64,000 nt of DNA from contig NZ_CP009516.1 of the NCBI RefSeq assembly GCF_000970285.1, positions 3,327,036-3,391,035 on the forward strand. Reading direction: 5' to 3'. Below the pieces are notes generated by a model, which searched no databases, was not told the DNA's origin, and was given only the letters and a program-made list of their open reading frames with translations. Origin of the DNA: Methanosarcina horonobensis HB-1 = JCM 15518 (GTDB taxonomy: Archaea; Halobacteriota; Methanosarcinia; Methanosarcinales; Methanosarcinaceae). The position numbers and the translations under genes are program-made. The number at the start of each line of letters is the position of its first letter. Position 1 is the stretch's first letter. This document shows, piece after piece, positions 29,688 through 43,153 of the stretch.

Positions 29688-30173
29688 ATGACGACAGAAA
29701 GAGATGAAGACTACCTGAAAATTATCGCCTCAATCGTGGAAGAAAAAGGATACGCCAAAGTTAAAGATGTAGCAAAAGAGCTGGAACTCGGCCCTTCAAC
29801 CGTGACAGGTATGTTCAAGAAACTTGATAAAGAAGGCTACATAAATTATGAAAAGTACGGCGGAGTAACCCTTACCGAAAAAGGGATGGAAATCGCCAGA
29901 AAGACAAGGGAAAAATACAGTATGCTCAAGGACTTTCTGATGCATCTGGGAATTGACGAAAAGACAGCAGAAGAAGATGCATGTAAGATTGAGCACATAT
30001 TGAACCCAAAAACGGCACAGACGTTAAAAAAATTCGTAGAGTTTACGAATAAAGAAGGTGAGTCAAAGATCTGGATAGAACATTTCAGGCATTTTGCCCA
30101 GACCGGAGAATATGTACATTACTCTCCCGAAAACCGGGATAAATGCCCTGTTCACGGCAAGAAAGTTGAGTAA
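29688..30173 (+). CDS. DtxR/MntR-family metal-dependent transcriptional regulator
   Basis: This 161-residue protein has the winged helix-turn-helix of the family (AKVKDVAKELELGPSTVTGM, then LDKEGYINYEKYGGVTLTEK). The dimerisation domain follows, with metal-ligand candidates in DACKIEHILNP and a C-terminal His/Cys-containing tail (CPVHGKK). DtxR-type proteins repress metal-uptake genes when Fe2+ or Mn2+ is bound. The feo operon lies 900 bp upstream, and perfect inverted repeats precede both, which makes an iron regulon likely. Whether it senses iron or manganese is not decided by the sequence. Confidence 0.9.
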   Translation: MTTERDEDYLKIIASIVEEKGYAKVKDVAKELELGPSTVTGMFKKLDKEGYINYEKYGGVTLTEKGMEIARKTREKYSMLKDFLMHLGIDEKTAEEDACKIEHILNPKTAQTLKKFVEFTNKEGESKIWIEHFRHFAQTGEYVHYSPENRDKCPVHGKKVE

Positions 30174-30313: not shown

Positions 30314-31519
30314 TCAGGCAACCTTCCATGCAAACACAATCCTTGACCCGTCCTTCATGTCAAGGGCACGGAAGACTTCGAGCCCGTAGTTACCCAGCGT
30401 CTCTATATACTCGTTAAAAGGGACGCTGTTTTCGAAACTATAACCTGAGCTTCCTTTTTTCACATCTTCAAAGGTCCAGAGGTTCCAGTCAAGGCTCATA
30501 AGAGGACTGGATTTCATTTTTTCATCCGGAACCTGTCTTGTTACGAAAACACCTCCGGGATTTAAGGCCGCGGCAATTTTTGGGATAAGGGAAGGCACTT
30601 TCCCTCCGGGATTAAAGGAAGAGAAGATAAGATCATACTCACTTCCGATTTCATCTTTAAAAAAGTCCCCCGGAATTACATCCACCCTTGAAGCTCCATA
30701 TTTTTTAATGAAATATCTCGTCTCTTTCGTAACCGGCGGGAGATCGAAAACAAAAGCCTGAAGGTCTTCGTTCAGCTTTGAAAAAGCGATTGCATAGAGC
30801 CCGTGACCTCCCCCGAGGTCGAGAAGCTTCTTGACATTTGTAAAATCAACATTTTCCCGGACAACCCTGACCGTTTCCTGAAGCAGGCCGCAGCGTGCGT
30901 TTTCAGCCATACAGTGAACGACCTCCCCAAAAAATGGCCCTTTTTCGACAATATCAGGTCCCTGCTTCATGATCTGCGGAAGACGCGCCCAGCGTTCAAC
31001 ATTCCTGAACCTTTCGGCAAGGTAATGCTGTTGAGAAAACGGTGAACTTTCCAGAAGATAGGTTGCACTGAGTTCCGAGACCAGATATACTGCCCCATCA
31101 TTCTTTGTTCCTTTATCTGGATTCTGGTTCTGAGATATATCTTCGGGTTCTTCTTTATATTCACCTTCCGCTGCGCCTTTCTTTACAGTCTGCACTTTTT
31201 CCCCTTCTTCGCGTACTCCTTCCTCAAACCTGTCAAGGAGCCCGAGGCTGTGGAGAGCCTCGCAAAAATGGGGCATGAGCACGGGGTCACAGCCTAGCCT
31301 TTCAGCCAGAGCCCCTGATGACAGGGGGATTTTAAGAGTTTCAAACACTCCAAGCTCAAAAGCCGCAGAAATAAGCCTGCATTCCCTCAAGCCCTGAACA
31401 GAAGAATCAACAAGCTTGAAAAATCGGTCAGAATCTACCTCAGGCTTTCGCATCAGGTCAATAGGCATTTCAGCTTGATTCCAGGATTTATTTTCCATAC
31501 CGTTAGCCTCATTTTCCAT
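30314..31519 (-). CDS. SAM-dependent methyltransferase, O-methyltransferase (dimerisation + catalytic) type
   Basis: The protein has about 401 residues. The N-terminal part (LISAAFELGVFETLK ... LAERLGCDPVLMPHFCEALH) is the winged dimerisation domain of plant-type O-methyltransferases. The catalytic domain has motif I LLDLGGGHGLYAIAFSKL and a later FNPGGKVPSLIPKIAAALNP stretch. A low-complexity Glu/Lys insert lies between them. ATG 31519 is preferred because AGGAG precedes it; the frame is open to 31555. It lies downstream of, and in the same direction as, the second nickel/peptide importer (31751-36978), with a 230-bp gap. The substrate is unknown. Confidence 0.85.
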   Translation of the reverse strand: MENEANGMENKSWNQAEMPIDLMRKPEVDSDRFFKLVDSSVQGLRECRLISAAFELGVFETLKIPLSSGALAERLGCDPVLMPHFCEALHSLGLLDRFEEGVREEGEKVQTVKKGAAEGEYKEEPEDISQNQNPDKGTKNDGAVYLVSELSATYLLESSPFSQQHYLAERFRNVERWARLPQIMKQGPDIVEKGPFFGEVVHCMAENARCGLLQETVRVVRENVDFTNVKKLLDLGGGHGLYAIAFSKLNEDLQAFVFDLPPVTKETRYFIKKYGASRVDVIPGDFFKDEIGSEYDLIFSSFNPGGKVPSLIPKIAAALNPGGVFVTRQVPDEKMKSSPLMSLDWNLWTFEDVKKGSSGYSFENSVPFNEYIETLGNYGLEVFRALDMKDGSRIVFAWKVA

Positions 31520-31597
31520 ACCATTTCTCCTATTTTCATATACTTTCCTGTTCACTTTCTTTTACTTATCTTTCAAATCCGATGGAACATAATTTAC

Positions 31598-31750: not shown

Positions 31751-32449
31751 TTACCTGAAACCGATAATTTTTCCTCCCTCCATTAAAGCGACTTTATCAC
31801 TCATCCATTCCACTACCCGCATATCGTGCGAGATAAATAGAAAACTGATTCTGTACTCGGTTTGCAGTTTTTTGAGAAGGAAAAGGATCTGGGCCTGGAC
31901 AAGAGGGTCAAGCATGGATGTGGGCTCATCCGCGACTATGAACTCAGGTTTCATGCCAAGGACTCTGGCTATTGCGACTCTCTGGAGCTGCCCTCCGCTC
32001 AACTCCCTGGGATAGCGGAAAAGCAGTTCTTCGCTCAGTGAAACAGCCTCGATGAGTTCCTGAATCCGTCCTCGCTCTTCATCCCTTTCAAAGAGCCTGT
32101 GAAGCCTCAGGGGCTCAGCAATTGCATCGTAAATCCTCATCCTCGGATTCAGGCAGGATTCCGGGTTCTGGAAAATAATCTGCATTCTTGTTCCCAGGTT
32201 TTTCAGGTCACTGCCTTTGAGGCCTGAGATGTCCTGCCCGTCAAAAAAGATACTACCAGAAGTGGGATCCAGCAGCTTTAAAACTGTTCTTCCGAGGGTA
32301 GATTTTCCACAGCCGCTTTTTCCGACAAGCCCCAGGGTTTCTCCTCGTCCGATATCAAAACTGACCCCATCAACCGCCCTGTGAATCTCTTTTTTGAACA
32401 GCCCTGAATAATAGTACTTTTTCAGGTTTTCTACCTTCAACAGCGCCAT
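31751..32449 (-). CDS. ABC importer ATPase, DppF/NikE type
   Basis: This ATPase of about 232 residues has Walker A GKSGCGKST, signature LSGGQLQR, Walker B FIVADEPTS and the H-loop LFISHD. It is the second ATPase of a nickel/peptide importer and partners the DppD-like ATPase just upstream. ATG 32449 has GAGGAGG directly before it and overlaps the end of the upstream gene by about 13 bp. It lacks the C-terminal peptide-family extension found in many DppF proteins and ends soon after the H-loop domain. Confidence 0.9.
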   Translation of the reverse strand: MALLKVENLKKYYYSGLFKKEIHRAVDGVSFDIGRGETLGLVGKSGCGKSTLGRTVLKLLDPTSGSIFFDGQDISGLKGSDLKNLGTRMQIIFQNPESCLNPRMRIYDAIAEPLRLHRLFERDEERGRIQELIEAVSLSEELLFRYPRELSGGQLQRVAIARVLGMKPEFIVADEPTSMLDPLVQAQILFLLKKLQTEYRISFLFISHDMRVVEWMSDKVALMEGGKIIGFR

Positions 32450-33465
32450 ATTCCCTCCTCTGAACACCTTAGAACAGGCTGTAAGGTAAGAAGCGGCTGT
32501 GCTGCAGTTTCCTTTCTCCTGCCCTTCTCTGAGAGAAGGCAGCGGATAAAGCGCTCTCCCTCAAGTTCTCGAAGTGCCGGATGGGCTAATGAACAAGCCT
32601 CAAACCGGAAACGGCAGCGCTGATGGTACCTGCACCCTGAAGGAGGGGAGACAAGGCTGGGCGGGTGGCCTGAAACGGTTCCGAATCCCTTTCCGGGAAG
32701 TGAGCGCAGGAGGTCAAGAGTGTAAGGGTGTTTGGGGCTAGAAATGATCTCTTCTGCCATTCCCATTTCAACGATTTCTCCGGCGTACATGACTGAAATC
32801 CTGTCTGCAAGCCTGCCGGCAAGTTCCAGGTCATGTGTGATAAGGAGCATAGAAGCGTTTTCTTTGCGGACAAGCCCAACAATCAGTTCTGCAATCTGCA
32901 ATTTCGTATCCGGATCAAGTCCCTTTGTAGGTTCGTCCGCGATCAGGAGTCCGGGTCTGATGGCAAGCCCTATTGCGACCATAACTCTCTGCAGCATCCC
33001 GCCGCTGAACTGGTGGGGATAGTCACACCCCCGAGAAGAGCTTATTCCTACGAGCTCGAGCATTTCTCCGGCTTTTTTTTCGGCTTCCTTTTTTCCCATG
33101 ATTTCGTGGTAGCGGTAGATTTCTGCAATCTGCTTTCCTGTAGAAAGGACAGGATTGAGGCAGGCTGAAGGGTTCTGGAGAATAATTCCGATCTCCTTTC
33201 CCCTGAGAAGCCTCATTTCCTTCTCAGGCAGGGTGAGGAGATCTTTATCTCTGTACATAATTTTTCCTTCGAGTTTTGCCTTACCTGAGAGCAGTCTTAA
33301 AATAGCTTTTCCAAGCGTGGTTTTTCCACAGCCGGTTTCCCCGATAAGTCCCAGAATTTCTCCTTCCCTGATCTGAAGGGAGACATCCTCATTGGCTTTT
33401 ACAATGCCTTTTGAGGTTTTGAAAGAAACATTCAGGTTTTCTATTGATAGAATGGGAGAACTCAC
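32437..33465 (-). CDS. ABC importer ATPase, DppD/NikD type
   Basis: The protein has about 342 residues. It shows Walker A GETGCGKTT, signature FSGGMLQR, Walker B LLIADEPTK and the oligopeptide/dipeptide C-terminal motif (CRYHQRCRFRFEAC). I start at GTG 33465: it forms a GTGA overlap with the stop of the upstream permease, and homology begins there, whereas the open frame running on to 33630 lies inside that permease. It pairs with the NikE-type ATPase. Nickel-chelate or peptide import is expected. Confidence 0.9.
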   Translation of the reverse strand: MSSPILSIENLNVSFKTSKGIVKANEDVSLQIREGEILGLIGETGCGKTTLGKAILRLLSGKAKLEGKIMYRDKDLLTLPEKEMRLLRGKEIGIILQNPSACLNPVLSTGKQIAEIYRYHEIMGKKEAEKKAGEMLELVGISSSRGCDYPHQFSGGMLQRVMVAIGLAIRPGLLIADEPTKGLDPDTKLQIAELIVGLVRKENASMLLITHDLELAGRLADRISVMYAGEIVEMGMAEEIISSPKHPYTLDLLRSLPGKGFGTVSGHPPSLVSPPSGCRYHQRCRFRFEACSLAHPALRELEGERFIRCLLSEKGRRKETAAQPLLTLQPVLRCSEEGIWRC

Positions 33466-34361
33466 CTTGCGAGCACCTCCTGATCCGCGGGCTGCCCGAG
33501 GCTGTCCCTCAAGCCGTCTCCTGCAAAATTGAATGCAAAGACTGTGAATATGATCATCAGACCCGGGAAAAAGGTGAGATGAGGAGCTGTACGAAGGTAG
33601 GGAATCCCGGCTTTGAGCATGGAACCCCATTCCGGAACAGGTGGCTGGATTCCGAGCCCGAGAAAACTCAGAGCTGAAGCAAAGATTATAACGTGCGCAA
33701 TCTCAAGTGTCCCAAGCACAATTATGGGTTCCATGCAGTTTGGAAGAATATGTTTTCGCATAATGTAGAAGCCGGAAGGCCTGAGAGCCCTTGCGGCCTC
33801 CACAAAAGCCCTCTTCCTGAGGGAGAGAGCCTGCCCGCGTACAAGCCTGGCATAAGCAGGCCACTGGGTAAAGGCAAGGGCAAGGACAACACTTGAAAAA
33901 CCCGGACCAAGCAGTCCTGCAATCAAAAGGGCGAGGATGATATTTGGAAAAGCCATCACGATGTCCACTCCTCTCATCAGGACTTCATCGAGCAAACCTC
34001 CCCTGTACCCTGAAGTCAGCCCTATGGCTGTGCCTGCAACGGATGTTACTGCAACTACAAGAAGTCCTATTCCAAGAGAAATGCGAGTGCCGTAAATGAC
34101 CCTTGAAAAAATGCAGCGCCCAAGCTCATCGGTCCCGAAAGGATATTCGGAAGAAGGAGACAGAAGCCTGCGGTCAAGTTTCTGGGCAAAGGGATCGTGA
34201 GGGGCTATTTCAGGAGCAAATAGTGCCAGAATGCAGAGGACGGCGATAAGCATGAGACCTGAAACCGCAAGTTTGTTTTTCCCGAATTCCTCCAAATCCG
34301 GTCTTTTTTCGGCCAGGTACGCTTTTTCGGTAATCTCTGTTTTTTCAATCACGTCTGTCAT
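33462..34361 (-). CDS. ABC importer permease, DppC/NikC type
   Basis: This 299-residue permease has the family motif FGTDELGRCIFSRVIYGTRI and the EAA loop EAARALRPSGFYIMRKHILP, with about six helices. It overlaps the upstream permease gene by 17 bp and the downstream ATPase by 4 bp, so the five genes form one operon (binding protein, two permeases, two ATPases). The corresponding protein of the first cluster (1677-2606) is similar in plan but clearly diverged. Confidence 0.92.
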   Translation of the reverse strand: MTDVIEKTEITEKAYLAEKRPDLEEFGKNKLAVSGLMLIAVLCILALFAPEIAPHDPFAQKLDRRLLSPSSEYPFGTDELGRCIFSRVIYGTRISLGIGLLVVAVTSVAGTAIGLTSGYRGGLLDEVLMRGVDIVMAFPNIILALLIAGLLGPGFSSVVLALAFTQWPAYARLVRGQALSLRKRAFVEAARALRPSGFYIMRKHILPNCMEPIIVLGTLEIAHVIIFASALSFLGLGIQPPVPEWGSMLKAGIPYLRTAPHLTFFPGLMIIFTVFAFNFAGDGLRDSLGQPADQEVLAR

Positions 34362-35292
34362 ATCTTATCCTCGGGTCAAGCACTGCATACAGAATATCAA
34401 CAGCAAGGCTGGAAAGGGAAAAAAGCACTGCAATAAACAGGACGCAGCCCTGTATCATGGAAAAATCCCGCGCAAAAATCGAGTCAACAAGAAGTTTTCC
34501 AATGCCGGGCCAGGAAAATATGGTTTCCACAATCACGGTTCCTCCGAGAAGGTAGCCGAACTGCATTCCTGCAAATGTGACTACAGGTAAAAGGGCATTT
34601 TTCAGGGCGTGTCGGAAAAGGACGGTACGTTCGTCAAGCCCCCTGGCACGGGCAGCCACAATATATTCCTGTCCCATCACTTCCAGAAGGCTTGCGCGGG
34701 TCAGCCTTGCAGTAACCGCAGCCAGTGAAGTGCCAAGAGTAATTGCAGGAAGGACAAAATGCTTGAGGCTTCCGTACCCGAAACTTGGGAGCATGTGAAG
34801 CGTAAGGGCAAAAAGCCAGATCAGGAGAAGTCCAAGCCAGAAGTTCGGAACAGAAACCCCAACCAGAGAAACAAACATGCAGCTATTGTCAAGAAGGGTA
34901 TTTTTTCTAAGTGCACTCAGTATCCCCGCAGGCAGGGCGATCAGGAGGGAAATCAGCAGGCTGGCGACTGCAAGCTCTACAGTCGCAGGCAGTTTCTGAA
35001 GGATTTCGACAAGGACATCTTCCGATGTCACAAGCGATTTTCCAAAGTCCAGTCTGAGCAGATGCCCGATCCATATAAGGTACTGCACATGTACAGGAGC
35101 GTCAAGCCCTTCTGCCTCCCTAAGGGTTTCGATCTGGCCTGCGCTCAGGTCCTGCCCGTATCTTGCAAGGGCGATAACCTCTGCTGGGTCGCCTGGAGCA
35201 AGGTACATCGCAGAAAAAGCTACTAGCGTAACTCCTGCGATCACGATAGAAACCATTGCCAAGCGTTTTGCTATATATTCCCACATGGGCAT
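34345..35292 (-). CDS. ABC importer permease, DppB/NikB type
   Basis: This 315-residue permease has the N-terminal motif APGDPAEV, a long external loop, and the EAA loop VAARARGLDERTVLFRHALK. It is the first permease of the second nickel/peptide importer and follows the lipoprotein gene after 111 bp. Together with the NikC-type subunit it forms the channel. Typical NikB and DppB proteins have the same length, so the family name alone does not settle the substrate. Confidence 0.92.
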   Translation of the reverse strand: MPMWEYIAKRLAMVSIVIAGVTLVAFSAMYLAPGDPAEVIALARYGQDLSAGQIETLREAEGLDAPVHVQYLIWIGHLLRLDFGKSLVTSEDVLVEILQKLPATVELAVASLLISLLIALPAGILSALRKNTLLDNSCMFVSLVGVSVPNFWLGLLLIWLFALTLHMLPSFGYGSLKHFVLPAITLGTSLAAVTARLTRASLLEVMGQEYIVAARARGLDERTVLFRHALKNALLPVVTFAGMQFGYLLGGTVIVETIFSWPGIGKLLVDSIFARDFSMIQGCVLFIAVLFSLSSLAVDILYAVLDPRIRYDRRD

Positions 35293-35403: not shown

Positions 35404-36978
35404 TTACTTCCTTTCCAGGTAGACCCCTGAAAGGTTCAGCCAGGGGTCTTCGGAACTTATAGTATAGCCTTTTACCGAAGAACCGGTTGCAACGACCTTT
35501 TCCTCATGCACAAGGTAATAAGCCGGAACTTCTTCTATCACAAAGGCCTGCAGGGAATGATAGAGTTCTTCCTGCTCCTGTACATCAACAGTCATATCAG
35601 CTTCATTTACGAGCTGGTCATAGGTTTCATTGTGGTAGTGAGAGTACGGGCTTGCGGAATGGTGCACAAAGAAATGCTTCGGGTAGGGTCCCCAGACGAA
35701 ATAGCCGCTTCTGAGTATCATGCCAAAGTCCCCTGTGCTTTCGAGTTTGTTTATGGCTCCTTCGTCAAGCACCTGGATTTCCAAGTTCATTCCTATTTCC
35801 CTGAGGGTTCCCTGCACAACCTGAGCCATGGGGTTATGCCTGGCTGCCCAGACTCCCTTACTTACCACCAGAGTTACATGCAGTGATTTTCCGTCTTTGT
35901 CCCTTATCCCGTCCCCGTCAGAGTCTTTCCACCCGGCTTCCTCAAGGAGAGCTTTTGCTTTATCGAGGTCTTGAGTATATGTTTCAAGGTCCGGGTCAGA
36001 ATACATCATCACAGGGGAATATGGCCTTCCGCCTGCAGGTTCACCTATGCCTTCAAGTACTTCGTTTACCAGGGATTCGGTATCGATAGCATAAGCAATA
36101 CTCTGGCGTACCCTGGTGTCATTAAAGGGAGATTTGTCGCAGTTGAACTGCAGGAAGTCTGTAAATGTCGTAAGTTTCCTGTGAATCTGGATGCCTTCTT
36201 CGGCTTCGAGCCTTTTAACATCGTATTCGGGGACCTTGATTATCATATCCACCTCCCCGGTCTCAAGGGCAATTACCCTGGTAGCAGCTTCAGGGACAAC
36301 CTTGAAAGTAACCTTATCAAGCAGCGATTTTTCTCCCCAGTAAGCTTCGTTTCTTGTGAGCACTATCTCCTGGTCTTTTGTCTGGGTTTCAAATTTGAAA
36401 GGTCCGGTACCTACCGGTTTGACAAAATTTCCTTCAGAATCAAGGCATCCAGGACCCATCACAGGCCAGGCTACATGGGTAAGGTAGTAAGGCAGAGGCA
36501 TGGGTTTTGCAAGGACAAATTTCACAGTATAATTATCAATGGCTTCCACGCTCTGAACCGGCTTTAAAACTGCCTGCCTTACGTAGGACTGGTTTGAATA
36601 AGAGAAAACAACCGAGTCCGCATCAAAAGGTGTCCCGTCATGGAAAGTCACGTTTTCGCGCAGGTGAAAGATCCAGGTCTTGCCGTTATCAGGGGTTTGC
36701 CAGGACTCTGCAAGCCCTTGGGTAATGTTAAGGTCCGAGTCAAGCCTTACAAGGGTTTCATAGACCTGAGACCAGACAAAACGTGCGTCACCAGCTGCAA
36801 ATGTGTCAAGATACCAGCTGCTGACGTCCGAACCTAGGCCCACGACAAGCTCCTGGGAACTTCCCCCGGAGCCTGCACCCTGAGCAGTTCCTTCCTTATC
36901 TTCGCCTATACAGGCACTTGCTCCTATTACTGCAAACAACATACAGATGATCAGAATGAACTTGAAGTTCCGGTTCAT
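35404..36978 (-). CDS. Substrate-binding lipoprotein of nickel/peptide importer
   Basis: This 524-residue protein starts with a lipoprotein signal (hydrophobic FILIICMLFAVIGASAC, with the lipobox cysteine near residue 23). The SBP family 5 core follows: VYETLVRLDSDLNITQGLAE, FHLRENVTFHDGTPFDADSV and PVGTGPFKFE. A Ca-loop-like insert (DSDGDGIRDKDG) is present, as in many of these proteins. NikA-like features (VRQAVLKPVQSVEAIDNYTV) make nickel or a nickel chelate a good candidate; oligopeptides cannot be excluded. It leads the operon and captures the ligand outside the membrane. Confidence 0.9.
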   Translation of the reverse strand: MNRNFKFILIICMLFAVIGASACIGEDKEGTAQGAGSGGSSQELVVGLGSDVSSWYLDTFAAGDARFVWSQVYETLVRLDSDLNITQGLAESWQTPDNGKTWIFHLRENVTFHDGTPFDADSVVFSYSNQSYVRQAVLKPVQSVEAIDNYTVKFVLAKPMPLPYYLTHVAWPVMGPGCLDSEGNFVKPVGTGPFKFETQTKDQEIVLTRNEAYWGEKSLLDKVTFKVVPEAATRVIALETGEVDMIIKVPEYDVKRLEAEEGIQIHRKLTTFTDFLQFNCDKSPFNDTRVRQSIAYAIDTESLVNEVLEGIGEPAGGRPYSPVMMYSDPDLETYTQDLDKAKALLEEAGWKDSDGDGIRDKDGKSLHVTLVVSKGVWAARHNPMAQVVQGTLREIGMNLEIQVLDEGAINKLESTGDFGMILRSGYFVWGPYPKHFFVHHSASPYSHYHNETYDQLVNEADMTVDVQEQEELYHSLQAFVIEEVPAYYLVHEEKVVATGSSVKGYTISSEDPWLNLSGVYLERK

Positions 36979-37547: not shown

Positions 37548-40500
37548 TCAGGTATCAAATCCCTGTTCCCTTAAGATATACATAAAAAGGACCAGACCAA
37601 GCACGTTTACCAGGAGCATGGAAGGAAGGCTATTTCGTATAACACTGGTGATATCCTCCATAGGAGCAGGATAGACTAGAAGCGGGAAAATGACCAGAAG
37701 ATGAAGGCATTCGACCAGAATTCCTAAAAAAATAGCTTTAAGGTAGTTAAGTTTTCGTTTCCAGAAAATAGAAAAGCCTCCTGCAACAAGTCCTGCGACA
37801 ATTGTGGCAACTGCGCAGGGGACAGCAGTCCACCCTCCCTGACTTAAACGGTAGATGCCGCCTATGAGTCCTGTAAGCCCCCCGATTAAAGGACCTCCCA
37901 GAAGCCCTGCAAGCATGGGACCCAGATCCCGGAAATTAACCAGAATCCCGTCCACCGGGACAGCTCGCATCGTGCCATAGACAGAAAGCAGGCCGAAGCT
38001 CATCACCAGCCATATCCTGCTGCTTCCTGAAAGCCTTCCTGCAACCGCTTCACACAGAGTATCAGTACGGCTGAGAAGGTACAGAGAAAAGGCAACCACA
38101 AGCACCCTTTCAAGCAGCGGGACAGCAACATTAAGCAGATAGCCGTCATTGGCAGCAGCAAGGAAAAGAAGTACAGAAACTGCAAGCGGCTTTATGAGAG
38201 CCGAAGTTTCCGTCTTTTCAGCGTTAACCTCACCTGTGAGCTTTAAGTTTCCGGTGTCAACCGGGTTAAGTTCCTGGATCACATAGAGGAAAAATAAAAG
38301 TCCCAGCACGTTTATCACGGTCATAGGCAGGTAGGAACTGCGGATAACTTCCAGAATATCAGAAAGAGGCGCAGGATATGTAAGAAACGGGAACAGTACG
38401 AATAAGTGCAGACTTTCGATAAAAACTCCAAGAAAAACAAACCGGGCGTAACTAAATTTTTTCCCCCATTTATTTGAAAGTACTCCGGCCAGGAGACCTG
38501 CAGCAACACTTGCCACTGCACATGGAAGAGCTGTCCAGCCTCCCTGCATATAGCGAACAGAGCCGCCCATTAGTCCGGCAGCTGCCCCTGCAAAGGGCCC
38601 GCAGAGCAGACCTGCCAGCATTGGCCCGAGGTCCCGGAAATTGACAAGAATCTCTCCTACCCGAACAGCCTGAAGTGTTCCGTAGACCGAGAGGAAACCA
38701 AAATCCAGTGCCATCAGGCTCTTCTCCTTAAGGTTCAGGCTGCCTTTGAGCGATTTTTTTACCGTGGCAGTTCCGGAGAGTATGTAGAGGAAAAAGGCCA
38801 CAACCGCAAAGCGTTCGATCAGCTGGATGCCGGTTGTCATGAAACTCCCCTCTAAAATTAGAAGTATGAGCACGGATATCAGGACGGTTAAAGTCTGCAG
38901 CGATACTTTCAGGTCCCCGGCTCCCTGCAAGCGCGAAACGAATTTGTTTTCAAGGAAAAAGCTCTGTTCCTTTAGAATATACAGGAAGAGAGCCAATCCG
39001 AACACATTTGTGAGAATCATGGGCAGCAGGAAACTCCTGATCAGGCTGAGAATATCCTCAAGGGGTGCGGGATATACAAGGAGAGGAAAAATCACCAGGA
39101 GATGGATAGCTTCCACAAACACACCAAGCCCTATAAGCCTTTGATAGTCCAGCCTGCCCTTCCAGCAAATTGCGGCATAGCCTGCCAGGACGCCTGCCAG
39201 AATTGTTGCAACCGCACATGGAAGGGCTGTCCAGCCTCCCAGAGAATAGCGGTAGAGCCCTCCTATCAATCCAGAGAGGCCACCGATTACGGGTCCCCCT
39301 ATTAGCCCTGCCAGCATGGGTCCGAGATCCCTGAAGTTGATATACGCCCCGTTAAAGAGAACTGCCTGGGTGGTTCCGTAAATGGAAAGAGTGCCGAAAA
39401 CTATCACGATCAGGGCTCTGTCAGCCATTGAAAAACCGCGTTCAAGGGCTAACCTCATGTTTTTTGAGCTACTGAACAGATATATAGCAAAGGCGACCAC
39501 CGTAACCCTTTCCATTAAAGGGACCCCGAAAAGCAGAAGCTGTTCTTCTTTCAGGAGTGCTACAAGAAGGAACAAAAAGCTGCCTGAAACCATTAGGAAA
39601 CGCCATAACTTTGACCCCCTTGCATATGCAGGGAGCTTGAAGTCAAGATAAACTACCATAAAACCGATGAATGCAAACATTATTGATGCGAGTGCAGAAA
39701 CCCATGTGAGGATACTGCCGGGTTCGCCGAAGATGATTATAAAAGCAAGAAGAATTACAAGCCCGGAAATTATCCTCCTGTAGAGAGTTTTTTCGTCCCG
39801 GAAGCTTATTCCTGTTCCTCTGACTATAGAAGCAATTGCGCGAGCCCTTCCGTCGATTCCTGTAAGGATAAGGGCGATGAAGATAACATATGAAGTTAAA
39901 ACGAATACAGGAACTCCATAAGGCAATTTGCGGAGTGAAAGATAAATCCCATTGAAGAAATCAATGCTTGAGCTTGAAGAAAGTCCGATAGTCATGAAGG
40001 CAAAGGAAAAGATCCCTGTCAGCAAGAAGGCTATCCCCTGACTGATCCTTACATTTCGAAAATTCCAGGAAAAATAAGCTTCCCCATGCATTGTCCCGAT
40101 CTTTTCCCGAAGCCAGGTGGAATAGAACAGGAGAGAAAGACTTGAACCTGCCGCCCCCAGCAGCCCCATAATCGTAATGAGCTGCTCTTTTTTAAGAACA
40201 GGAGCAAGGTCACTGGACAGATCTACGAAAGAAATTCCGGTCCCGAGTAAGGTATAAAGAGTCCCGATTATTATCAGGCATGCAAAAAAGGATACAATAG
40301 CTTCAAAAAAAGAATATGGACACTTGTATAGAAATAGGCCTGCCAAGATAAGAGAAAAAATCGCCATCAGTTTTACGGAAAAAAGTCCGGGTAAAAGCTG
40401 AACTAGAAAAGTTCCGGCAAAAAAGGCAATACCTCCGAAACCTAGCAGTTCGAGTGTGTAGATGCACATAATAAAGATTACTTCCCAGTTTTGGGGACCA

Positions 40501-40823
40501 GGAATGTGTCGGAAACCCCTGAAAATATCTTCTCCCTTTGAAATGGTATACCTGGAAAGGCCTTCTATGAGACAGTATTTGTAGACCAGAGCTACTCCGA
40601 TAACCCAGAGCATTCTGTATCTGGAAGATGCCCCTGAAATCAAAAGATCCGCATAACTGTCAACACTCATATGGACGGCAAGAATCAAGCACGGTCCTAA
40701 GAAAAACAGCATGTCTAACAGAACAGGCACAAATCGCCCTGTTCTACTCTGAAGAATAAATGGGGTAGTAAATGCGGAATCCGAGGCGTTTTTTAGATCT
40801 TGGAATAAGTTGATTCCAGCCAC
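37548..40823 (-). CDS. NRAMP-like transporter domain fused to three LytS-type 5TM modules
   Basis: This is a 1091-residue membrane protein. Residues about 30-425 look like a diverged NRAMP/SLC11 transporter: a GP motif in the first helix, SYADL near where DPGN normally stands, then LLWVIGVALVYKYC-like (MLWVIGVALVYKYC) and a sixth-helix region LLGAAGSSLSLLFYSTWLRE. Three tandem modules follow (about 430-620, 650-850, 880-1090). Each contains NFRDLGPMLAGL (at 496, 728 and 963), GGWTALPCAVA or GGWTAVPCAVA, and a YPAP motif, as in the 5TM-5TMR_LYT sensor domain. It is divergent from a sensor histidine kinase across 311 bp. Loss of DPGN and of the MPH motif suggests sensing rather than Mn/Fe transport, but this is inference. 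Confidence 0.82.
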   Translation of the reverse strand: MAGINLFQDLKNASDSAFTTPFILQSRTGRFVPVLLDMLFFLGPCLILAVHMSVDSYADLLISGASSRYRMLWVIGVALVYKYCLIEGLSRYTISKGEDIFRGFRHIPGPQNWEVIFIMCIYTLELLGFGGIAFFAGTFLVQLLPGLFSVKLMAIFSLILAGLFLYKCPYSFFEAIVSFFACLIIIGTLYTLLGTGISFVDLSSDLAPVLKKEQLITIMGLLGAAGSSLSLLFYSTWLREKIGTMHGEAYFSWNFRNVRISQGIAFLLTGIFSFAFMTIGLSSSSSIDFFNGIYLSLRKLPYGVPVFVLTSYVIFIALILTGIDGRARAIASIVRGTGISFRDEKTLYRRIISGLVILLAFIIIFGEPGSILTWVSALASIMFAFIGFMVVYLDFKLPAYARGSKLWRFLMVSGSFLFLLVALLKEEQLLLFGVPLMERVTVVAFAIYLFSSSKNMRLALERGFSMADRALIVIVFGTLSIYGTTQAVLFNGAYINFRDLGPMLAGLIGGPVIGGLSGLIGGLYRYSLGGWTALPCAVATILAGVLAGYAAICWKGRLDYQRLIGLGVFVEAIHLLVIFPLLVYPAPLEDILSLIRSFLLPMILTNVFGLALFLYILKEQSFFLENKFVSRLQGAGDLKVSLQTLTVLISVLILLILEGSFMTTGIQLIERFAVVAFFLYILSGTATVKKSLKGSLNLKEKSLMALDFGFLSVYGTLQAVRVGEILVNFRDLGPMLAGLLCGPFAGAAAGLMGGSVRYMQGGWTALPCAVASVAAGLLAGVLSNKWGKKFSYARFVFLGVFIESLHLFVLFPFLTYPAPLSDILEVIRSSYLPMTVINVLGLLFFLYVIQELNPVDTGNLKLTGEVNAEKTETSALIKPLAVSVLLFLAAANDGYLLNVAVPLLERVLVVAFSLYLLSRTDTLCEAVAGRLSGSSRIWLVMSFGLLSVYGTMRAVPVDGILVNFRDLGPMLAGLLGGPLIGGLTGLIGGIYRLSQGGWTAVPCAVATIVAGLVAGGFSIFWKRKLNYLKAIFLGILVECLHLLVIFPLLVYPAPMEDITSVIRNSLPSMLLVNVLGLVLFMYILREQGFDT

Positions 40824-41134
40824 TATAGCACCTTTAATAAAAAATTAAATATATAATAAAGATCAGAATAGTATTACTATTTTAAAAGAGTTGTGCCCGG
40901 AAAATTAATTTGACTATTAATGTACCTATCTACCAATTAATAGATATGACGAATTCATTAAAAACGAGTCTTGAATCTTTCAAGTATTTAAAGACCTAAA
41001 AAATTCTTTTAACTTGGTTTTTAAGAGACTACTTATAAAACTAGAAAACAATTTATACTACGGTCAATAGATACAATTAAGGATGTGGTGTTGGGAAATA
41101 AAAAAACTCTTACATAACCTTCAAGCCTTCCCTC
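40824..41134. other. Divergent promoter region
   Basis: These 311 bp separate the NRAMP-like fusion gene (minus) from the histidine kinase gene (plus). The only distinct structure is the inverted repeat at 40914-40943. Confidence 0.5.
40914..40943. promoter_or_regulatory. Inverted repeat in the divergent promoter region
   Basis: Perfect 8-bp arms CTATTAAT (40914-40921) and ATTAATAG (40936-40943) are separated by 14 bp. The location between two divergent genes suits an operator controlling both. Confidence 0.45.
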
Positions 41135-43153
41135 ATGAAACTGGGGCTGTTCCTGGTCATATCAGGCATTCTCTACTCGATCAGTCTTGAGAATTATCTG
41201 CTTTTCCGTATCGCTGTAAATCTTTTTAATGTTATAATTGCCTACATGGTTTTCATAATAGTATGGAAATCAAAGACAGTTTCGGAGAACAGGTATCTTA
41301 CATTTATCGGGACTGCGCTCTTCTTCATAGCTTGTCTTGGTTTTTTACGTGCCTTTGCATATGAGGAAATGAATGTATTTCCCGGATACGGTGCAAATCT
41401 TCCTGTACAGTTATGGATAGCCATAAGGTATCTGGTAAGTATCTCCTTCTTTGTGGCTCCATTGTTTTTTATACGGCGCTCAGGTAGCGAAAAAGATGAT
41501 TTGAAAACTGTCGAAAACAGCCAGTTTGCCCAGAAGGTGTTCCTTATATATACTGTAATTACGGCTGTTCTCCTTCTCTCAATCTTCAAGTACAGAAATT
41601 TTCCGGACTGCTACATCGAGGGCTCCGGACTAACTGAGTTTAAAATCTTCAGTGAGTATTTAATCTCTTTATTATTTCTTGGATCAGTGGTTTTCCTATA
41701 TAGGAAGAGAGACAGATTTGAGAAACACGTTTTTAGAATACTTATAGCAACCATAGTAGCGTCTATCTTAGCGGAACTTGCCCTTATTCACTACACAAAC
41801 ACAGAGGAACTTTTGAACTTTATCGGACAGACTTTTAATGCCCTTTCTTTCTACCTTATTTATATCGCAATCGTGGAAACAGGCTTTGATGAGCCCTGTA
41901 GCCTTCTTTTCAGGGAACTTAAGTTCAGGGAAGAAGCCCTGAGGAGAGAGACTGACTTCCTGAAGGATGACCGGGGAAGAATTTACAGGATGCTTGGAGT
42001 GGAAAAATGCATGCCTGAGAGTAAAACCTCAACTGAAAAGCTACAGGATAGAAGAGAACAATACAAAACCGAGCAATACAAAACCGATCAGTACAAAACA
42101 GAACAATACAGCTCTTTCTTACGGGACATGCAGGGGGTGATAGCGTTCAGGCTTGATGAGAAAGGTGCTCTGGTGTTTATGGACGGAGATGTGAGGGAGA
42201 TTACAGGCTACAGTAAAGAAGACTTCATTTCTAAAAAAGTGAAATGGACTGAAATAGTTCTACCCGAATACCGTCAATTAATTCTTGAAAACCTGAAAAA
42301 GATGGAATTAGACCCCAATTCCTCTCCGGAGCTGGAATATCGGATAAGGAAAAAGGATGAGAACATAGTGTGGGTCAGGGAAATCATACATGTTATTCCT
42401 GGAAAATCCGGCATCTCAGGAAAATTCCAGGGCTTTGTTCGTGACATCACTCAACATAAAAAAGCAGAAGAAGCTCTCGCCAAAAATGAAGAAGCCCGTA
42501 TAAAAGAGATCCATCATAGAATTAAAAATAACCTGCAGGTTATCTCTTCACTACTCAGCCTTCAGGCGGATAAACTCAATGAGAGGAAAACCTTCCAGTC
42601 TTCAGAAGTCTTTGAAGCTTTCAGGGAAAGCCAGAACCGCGTAGTTTCCATGGCTCTGATTCACGAAGAACTGTATCATGGAAAGAATATGGAAACGCTT
42701 GAGTTTTCGGCTTACCTCCGGAGGCTGACTTCGGACCTTCTCGCATCCTACAGTGTCAAAAGTGAGAGTATCAACCTGAAACTGGAGCTTGAACAGGTTT
42801 ACCTGGGAATGGACACTTCAGTTCCTCTGGGTATCCTTGTAAATGAACTGATTTCAAATGCTCTGAAACACGCTTTTCCGGAAGGCAAAGGAGGCGAAAT
42901 CCGTGTAAATCTCTTCAGGTCAGGTAATGATAGGGCAGAAAGTAAAATATCCGGCTTCAAAGAAGAAAGTGAACAGCAATTTACGCTGGTTATAGCAGAT
43001 AATGGAAAAGGTATTCCCGAAGAGCTTGATTTCAGAAATACGGACTCTCTTGGACTTCAGCTTGTAAATATTCTCGTGGAACAGATTGAAGGCTCTATCG
43101 AGCTTAAAAGAGATTCCGGAACGGAATTCCAGATCACGTTCAGGAAACCATAA
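41135..43153 (+). CDS. MASE3-PAS sensor histidine kinase (HisKA_2 type)
   Basis: This 672-residue protein has an N-terminal MASE3 membrane sensor (about 10-250, with NVFPGYGANLPVQLWIAIRY at 80-99). A Gln-Tyr-Lys-Thr repeat linker (309-325) comes next, then a PAS/PAC domain (about 325-445). The HisKA_2 dimerisation domain has the H-box EIHHRIKNNLQVISSLLSLQ, with the acceptor His at 460 or 461. An HATPase domain (about 550-670) shows NELISNALKHAF and DNGKGIP. No response regulator is adjacent. It is divergently transcribed from the NRAMP-like/5TM protein. No clear ribosome site precedes ATG 41135. Confidence 0.92.
   Translation: MKLGLFLVISGILYSISLENYLLFRIAVNLFNVIIAYMVFIIVWKSKTVSENRYLTFIGTALFFIACLGFLRAFAYEEMNVFPGYGANLPVQLWIAIRYLVSISFFVAPLFFIRRSGSEKDDLKTVENSQFAQKVFLIYTVITAVLLLSIFKYRNFPDCYIEGSGLTEFKIFSEYLISLLFLGSVVFLYRKRDRFEKHVFRILIATIVASILAELALIHYTNTEELLNFIGQTFNALSFYLIYIAIVETGFDEPCSLLFRELKFREEALRRETDFLKDDRGRIYRMLGVEKCMPESKTSTEKLQDRREQYKTEQYKTDQYKTEQYSSFLRDMQGVIAFRLDEKGALVFMDGDVREITGYSKEDFISKKVKWTEIVLPEYRQLILENLKKMELDPNSSPELEYRIRKKDENIVWVREIIHVIPGKSGISGKFQGFVRDITQHKKAEEALAKNEEARIKEIHHRIKNNLQVISSLLSLQADKLNERKTFQSSEVFEAFRESQNRVVSMALIHEELYHGKNMETLEFSAYLRRLTSDLLASYSVKSESINLKLELEQVYLGMDTSVPLGILVNELISNALKHAFPEGKGGEIRVNLFRSGNDRAESKISGFKEESEQQFTLVIADNGKGIPEELDFRNTDSLGLQLVNILVEQIEGSIELKRDSGTEFQITFRKP
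42059..42103 (+). repeat. 15-bp in-frame tandem repeat inside the kinase gene
   Basis: Three 15-bp units (CAATACAAAACCGAG and variants) encode QYKTE, QYKTD and QYKTE between the MASE3 and PAS domains. Changes in copy number would alter the linker by five residues each. Confidence 0.85.

Follow-up and report, generated by a model that had tools for sequence, protein, structure and literature searches.

Closest described systems

Fusions of an NRAMP domain to 5TMR modules were previously reported by Partipilo et al. (2024; PMC11109136), with the same two domains in the same order as those described herein, mainly in archaea, and the front domain is discussed in that paper as a metal transporter. 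In the present study, we analyzed a fusion gene of this type in a stretch of 64,000 nucleotides from Methanosarcina horonobensis HB-1 = JCM 15518 (contig NZ_CP009516.1, positions 3,327,036 to 3,391,035), which is referred to as the window and within which all coordinates below are given. The fusion protein may be a receptor or transceptor that works through a partner kinase and has a small carboxylate or an amino acid as its ligand, an interpretation to which we assign somewhat less than an even chance. Since the fusion type itself is already published, the original prediction, made from the letters of this DNA, has been overtaken in its statement that no described system has this layout. In the sections of the published account available to us, no mention was found of the number of modules, triplication, metal-ligand loss, a binding-protein operon, or a kinase-like fusion; relative to those sections, the new elements are the loss of the metal ligands, the triplicated form, the retained pocket residues, the binding protein of the amino-acid type in relatives, and the fusion to a kinase-like domain.

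Several other systems are similar in part. Regarding the LytS-type pyruvate receptor kinases BtsS and YpdA, the 5TMR fold, the NxR motif, and the residues N70, R72, R99, and C110 are common to both sides, whereas the window protein has Ala in place of S113, no attached kinase, three modules, and an NRAMP-fold front. The NRAMP/SLC11 metal transporters, such as MntH and DMT1, share the LeuT-type fold of 11 transmembrane (TM) helices with significant profile and fold similarity; however, the window protein lacks the DPGN and MPH ligands, and identity in structural alignments is ~15%. An organic-acid role has been proposed for the NRAMP-family proteins PxpT/YcsG, and a YcsG-FabL model (PDB 9a52) is among the fold matches of the window front; unlike the window protein, these have no 5TMR modules, and their substrate (5-oxoproline use or Mn) is still debated. 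The S-components of energy-coupling factor (ECF) transporters have the same core fold as the 5TMR modules, whereas the modules of the window protein lack AxxxA in helix H1, possess an extra helix H0, and are fused to an NRAMP-fold domain. The transceptors CbrA (PMC13022988) and Ks-Amt5 (PMC5764959), in which a transporter fold was recruited for sensing, are precedents for the interpretation proposed here, but carry a fused histidine kinase and have other transporter folds; the window protein has no kinase domain, and its relatives in genus g141 have a degenerate one.

Architecture of the fusion protein

The gene and its parts, all on the minus strand, are as follows.

37548..40823 (-): fusion gene for an NRAMP-like domain and three 5TMR modules, 1091 aa (open reading frame, Pfam, NCBIfam, and full-length AlphaFold model)
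39543..40733 (-): NRAMP-fold domain, residues ~31-427, 11 TM helices, without the metal ligands
38964..39545 (-): 5TMR module 1, H0 and six helices, residues ~427-620; NFRDLGPM at 39315-39338
38268..38900 (-): linker TM helix and 5TMR module 2, residues ~642-852; NFRDLGPM at 38619-38642
37566..38231 (-): linker TM helix and 5TMR module 3, residues ~865-1086; NFRDLGPM at 37914-37937

The start codon is GTG and the 1091-codon frame is intact. NFRDLGPM was found at residues 496, 728, and 963, exactly as predicted, and the three modules were matched by PF07694 (5TMR-LYT) three times (E 3.7e-108, 359 bits against a cut-off of 24.6), with a weak match to the ECF S-component type PF07155 (E 2e-8); this is the only protein with PF07694 in the genome. 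In a scan of 35 family members against PF01566, 31 matched, but the window protein was not among them; its front is matched by NCBIfam Nramp_1 at residues 43-390 (E 8.4e-13), with a score of 48.3 bits slightly below the cut-off of 50. Nramp_1 was matched by 35 of the 35 members. A profile built from 26 front domains of the family reached NRAMP chains in the PDB (best E 5.8e-17), and an AlphaFold model of the front (pLDDT 79.7) had Nramp/MntH as its best PDB matches (Foldseek E 2.6e-8, TM-score ~0.66-0.73), which bears out the prediction of a diverged NRAMP-like front. We regard it as confirmed that the protein consists of an NRAMP-fold front and three LytS-type 5TMR modules of the S-component fold.

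In the full-length model (pLDDT 76.8), an NRAMP domain is seen together with three repeats that each comprise H0, six helices, and a small hairpin at the NFR motif, while the pTM of 0.52 makes the arrangement of the domains unreliable. According to this model, a front with 11 TM helices would end outside, fitting an H0 that starts outside as in PMC11109136, and the extra helix between modules would restore the orientation. The linker helices match the position of TM11 of the NRAMP domain without strong identity, and we do not claim that modules 2 and 3 arose as copies of the fusion protein that included this helix.

Loss of the metal ligands

As predicted, both metal motifs are altered. In an HMMER alignment with solved NRAMPs, DPGN in TM1 is replaced by VDSY in the window protein, and most relatives have GES followed by a hydrophobic residue there; MPH in TM6 reads SSL or SGL, such that M is mostly replaced by S and H by L in 26/26 domains (S and L in the window protein); the canonical ligands were retained in none of the 26 aligned domains. 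An acidic residue (D or E) one position later, in the unwound part of TM1, is specific to the family and kept in 25 of the 26, the sole exception being L038, which has no 5TMR module. The fold of 11 helices is conserved, with 39 invariant columns across the 26 sequences.

PxpT of Corynebacterium glutamicum, a member of the NRAMP family, is needed for growth on 5-oxoproline (PMC13274462), and NRAMP-family membership therefore need not mean metal transport; its Bacillus subtilis homologue YcsG was assigned to Mn import (PMC10448178). Because all metal ligands are lost and an amino-acid-type binding protein is encoded beside the relatives (see below), metal transport or metal sensing by the fusion protein is made less likely, and members of this family are probably mislabeled when they are automatically annotated as "Nramp family divalent metal transporter". 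The same genome encodes a second NRAMP-like protein of 355 aa (L045:3489-4556, G000:C1:2226603; PF01566 E 3e-14) that also lacks DPGN.

Pockets of the 5TMR modules

The pocket residues were read from an alignment of the modules to Escherichia coli BtsS, in which changing R72, R99, C110, or S113 reduces pyruvate affinity and abolishes signaling, and S113A abolishes sensing (PMC10653868). Equivalents of N70, R72, R99, and C110 as well as the NxR motif (as NFR) are kept in all three modules, and S113 corresponds to Ala in each. The pocket thus looks carboxylate-binding, although it probably differs in some respect from the BtsS pocket. An adjacent polar pair, ER, is present in every H0 (residues 438, 670, and 905), and the AxxxA motif of transport-competent S-components is absent from all three H1 helices; by the distinctions drawn in PMC11109136, these features are of the receptor type, not the ECF type.

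Binding protein beside the relatives

Neighborhoods were counted at 49 distinct loci of the family, with the 451 non-adjacent ORFs at these loci as the background. A LivJ-type gene (Peripla_BP_6/ANF_receptor) adjoins the fusion gene at 24 of the 49 loci, directly downstream on the same strand in 23, and many of these gene pairs overlap by 4 bp; the Peripla_BP_6 profile matched none of the 451 background ORFs. The best PDB matches of these neighbors are branched-chain and other amino-acid-binding proteins. A hydrophobic N-terminal segment is present in 20 of 21 binding proteins, the remaining ORF being apparently truncated at its start, and a Gly-Cys resembling a lipobox is found in only one of the 21. 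The adjacent binding protein is the strongest functional clue and, judging from these matches, points to amino or organic acids.

At ten loci, the fusion gene has as its divergent upstream neighbor, usually at ~45-50 bp, a gene belonging to a single sequence cluster, the L054 member of which was checked and encodes a Bmp/PnrA-type substrate-binding protein; these loci are mostly in Methanocorpusculum (L054, L074, L076, L078-L080, L084, L086, L089, and L091).

Signaling link in the relatives

Kinases occupy 9 of ~92 adjacent slots, versus 11 of the 451 background ORFs (p 0.003, uncorrected for relatedness). In genus g141 (L134-L137), a front with two 5TMR modules runs into ~280 soluble residues. 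When profiled from four sequences, this C-terminal domain had no match in the PDB, no consistent one in Pfam, and a weak one to kinases; with 15 relatives from MBL-fold proteins added (19 sequences), it matched the profile of an archaeal kinase (probability 95.5, E 1.5e-8). The alignment spans the ATPase part up to the C terminus, and among 85 comparison clusters, the runner-up reached E 0.013. The HisKA_2 profile does not match the domain, which resembles another archaeal kinase type. Domains of this type form the C terminus of MBL-fold proteins where examined, are present in 74 of the 108 genomes in that taxonomic family, and lie within 3 kb of a 5TMR gene in ten cases by coordinate comparison. 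At Pfam-checked loci, they have genes for STAS, an RsbW-like ATPase, and, in L170, a 5TMR-SpoIIE phosphatase as neighbors. The kinase-like domain is thereby tied to 5TMR signaling in two ways, by fusion and by neighborhood.

At L170:2815-6819 (G407:C1) and L171:2917-6942 (G357:C1), genes for STAS and an MBL-fold protein with a degenerate kinase-like C-terminal domain face those for an apparent 5TMR-SpoIIE phosphatase and an RsbW-like ATPase. This divergent gene set recurs with similar spacing in approximately ten genomes of family f15, SpoIIE being Pfam-checked in L170, and resembles a sigma-factor-style partner-switching module in methanogens. To our knowledge, methanogens have no sigma factors. 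The g141 fusion gene is flanked upstream by DUF6790 (Pfam-checked in L134, L136, and L137) and downstream by a 327-aa gene, which is of the phosphofructokinase type in L134.

Distribution and selection

Intact three-module homologues were found in KYL-1 (86%) and in a genome of another genus (G005; 68%), and relics of the gene in G075 and G094; among 112 genomes of Methanosarcinaceae, the gene is intact in three with relics in two. In a tree of modules, modules 1, 2, and 3 of the three proteins cluster by position (support 98-99), and triplication therefore predates the split of these proteins. It is known only in Methanosarcinaceae and, judging from this tree, is old; the tree gives a polytomy as to which single module is nearest. 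Among 232 genomes of Methanomicrobiales, 77 match at E <= 1e-20, some of these matches being more distant NRAMP-like proteins. The forms observed there are the front only, the front with one module (the commonest), with two modules (L132 and L133), and with two modules plus the soluble domain of g141.

Omega in comparison with KYL-1 is 0.12 for the front, 0.12, 0.20, and 0.11 for modules 1, 2, and 3, and 0.13 for the whole gene; all four parts are under purifying selection. Synonymous divergence from KYL-1 (L058) is 0.59 for the fusion gene and approximately twice as high, 1.1-1.5, for the neighboring nik genes and kinase. In KYL-1, the fusion gene stands at the opposite end of the nik operon. 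The lower divergence hints at a more recent exchange or a transposition within the locus.

The MASE3 kinase and local neighborhood

The genes around the fusion gene are listed below.

41135..43153 (+): sensor kinase, 672 aa; MASE3 41180-41896, PAS_3 42173-42439, HisKA_2 42506-42751, HATPase_c 42824-43147 (Pfam)
40824..41134 (.): divergent intergenic region, 311 bp, between the fusion gene and kinase, head to head
35404..36978 (-): NikA-type substrate-binding protein, the next co-directional gene, 569 bp from the fusion gene
31751..35292 (-): NikB, NikC, NikD/OppD-like, and NikE-like ABC genes
30314..31555 (-): O-methyltransferase-like gene (PF00891/PF08100), travels with the nik operon
29688..30173 (+): DtxR/MntR-type metal regulator, context

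A FeoB gene is also present in this neighborhood. The divergent MASE3 sensor kinase was correctly identified in the original prediction. Its orthologues (at least 68% identity) were found in 6 of 31 Methanosarcina genomes, one of them fragmentary in a genome that is incomplete. Of these 6, 4 also carry the fusion gene or a relic of it, compared with 0 of the remaining 25 (p 0.0005, uncorrected for relatedness). The expectation that the two genes stay together in other Methanosarcina was supported in part: they adjoin in the window, KYL-1, and, with a relic of the fusion gene, G075; however, they are ~8 kb apart in G094, and no close kinase orthologue was found in G005, where the contig ends beside the fusion gene. 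The pair also differs in orientation, being head to head in the window but convergent (tail to tail) in KYL-1 and G075. The kinase adjoins nikA in G094, where the fusion relic lies at the other end of the nik operon, and stands beside the methyltransferase gene in G092 without nik or the fusion gene. The KYL-1 gene, like the G094 relic, also adjoins the nik operon. In G075, nikA is ~34 kb from the relic, and the neighbors of the fusion gene in G005 are enolase and MacB-type genes instead of nik. An orthologue of nikA is present in ~15 of the 31 Methanosarcina genomes, mostly without the fusion gene, and no metal genes recur beside the Methanomicrobiales relatives. The kinase, methyltransferase, nik, and fusion genes share a shuffled neighborhood, within which a dedicated receptor-kinase complex is possible.

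The intergenic region contains a palindrome, TAGTATTACTA, at 40869-40879, which is partly kept in KYL-1 beside an A/T-rich TATA-like stretch; it is weak evidence because approximately one occurrence is expected by chance at one mismatch. A shared operator with the metal regulator was considered and rejected, since the palindrome occurs only once in the window and gave no such link. The O-methyltransferase-like gene accompanies the nickel-type ABC operon in several Methanosarcina, and a role in nickel-ligand biosynthesis is conceivable.

Proposed role and alternative explanations

In the receptor or transceptor proposed above, an external small carboxylate, for example an amino or organic acid, would be bound by the 5TMR modules, the NRAMP-fold domain with its changed substrate site would move the solute or serve as a conformational partner, and the ligand state would pass to a partner of the histidine-kinase type. 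The ligand would be presented in most relatives by an amino-acid-binding protein that is anchored in the membrane and encoded on the same transcript; the lineage of the window has no adjacent binding protein but three binding modules through multiplication, and its nearest candidate output is the MASE3 kinase. The architecture, the fold, the lost metal ligands, the retained pocket residues, purifying selection, the gene overlap with the binding protein in relatives, and the natural g141 fusion are demonstrated, whereas the ligand class, the direction of signaling, and any role of this kinase are inferred. Several points weigh against the proposal. The fusion protein stops after module 3 with no attached cytoplasmic output or kinase domain in domain searches, and the set of BtsS pyruvate-receptor residues is incomplete at S113 in every module. 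Most relatives have no adjacent kinase, the neighborhood counts are uncorrected for relatedness, and the kinase-like domain of g141 is degenerate, with degraded ATP-site motifs, in a fusion confined to one genus. Moreover, the MASE3 kinase is equipped with a sensor domain of its own, and genomes with a decayed fusion gene or none have retained it (G075, G094, and G092). In the window, no Peripla_BP_6 gene adjoins the fusion gene, the neighbor being the NikA-type protein, and two homologues (26% identity) are encoded elsewhere in the genome. The predicted signaling to the adjacent kinase accordingly stands as a reasonable idea in its general form, given the relatives with 5TMR modules beside kinases or fused to a degenerate kinase-like domain, while the link to this particular kinase is loose.

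The principal rival, which is possible although we consider it distinctly short of probable, is an NRAMP-fold secondary carrier for an amino or organic acid without signaling, in which the 5TMR modules, together with the binding protein of the relatives, capture and hand over the substrate as S-components do for ECF transporters. The conserved fold with its invariant columns, the family-specific acidic residue in TM1, the binding-protein gene at approximately half of the loci, the scarcity of adjacent kinases or fused outputs, and the requirement for PxpT in 5-oxoproline use are all consistent with a carrier; however, 5TMR is a sensor domain in every characterized case, the modules keep the receptor-type H0 pair without AxxxA, g141 provides a natural fusion to a kinase-like domain, and kinase adjacency exceeds the background. 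A special case of the receptor proposal, with which its probability therefore overlaps in part, is that the fusion protein and MASE3 kinase form one fixed signaling complex. This is unlikely: the co-occurrence in kinase-bearing genomes and their proximity in four of them favor it, but the orientation changes, the kinase outlives an intact partner in three genomes, no orthologue was found in G005, and the whole locus could be the conserved unit. We regard as quite improbable a transport-coupled sensor for metal or nickel, tied to the neighboring nik operon and metal regulator, with import or sensing of a divalent metal by the NRAMP part and reporting by the modules, although this is closest to the original prediction and to PMC11109136. 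The location of the gene among nikABCDE, the DtxR/MntR regulator, and FeoB, the nik genes beside the KYL-1 gene and G094 relic, and the assignment of YcsG to Mn import are in its favor; the complete loss of canonical ligands, the distance of nikA in G075 and different neighbors in G005, the many nikA-bearing genomes without a fusion gene, and the lack of recurring metal genes in Methanomicrobiales argue against it. A decaying, functionless remnant, as the patchy distribution with relics might suggest, is already disfavored and hardly credible for an intact frame under purifying selection with three pockets conserved over two genera.

Implications

Returning to the receptor or transceptor proposal, its broadest form is an archaeal family of amino- or organic-acid transceptors. 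Here, an NRAMP-fold carrier put to a new use would combine with modules of the S-component fold into a single receptor; a binding protein anchored in the membrane would supply the ligand, and the output would run through either a histidine kinase or a partner switch of the STAS/SpoIIE/RsbW type, with three modules in Methanosarcina. As a whole, this is a doubtful extension. In PMC11109136, the NRAMP-5TMR fusion was seen as linking metal transport with sensing, whereas the present data point away from metals and toward amino or organic acids, and add a partner in the form of the binding protein as well as a natural fusion to a kinase-like domain. If true, methanogens would possess a receptor type that unites a transporter fold, a fold similar to that of vitamin transporters, and a solute-binding protein, the ligand of which would be directly testable.

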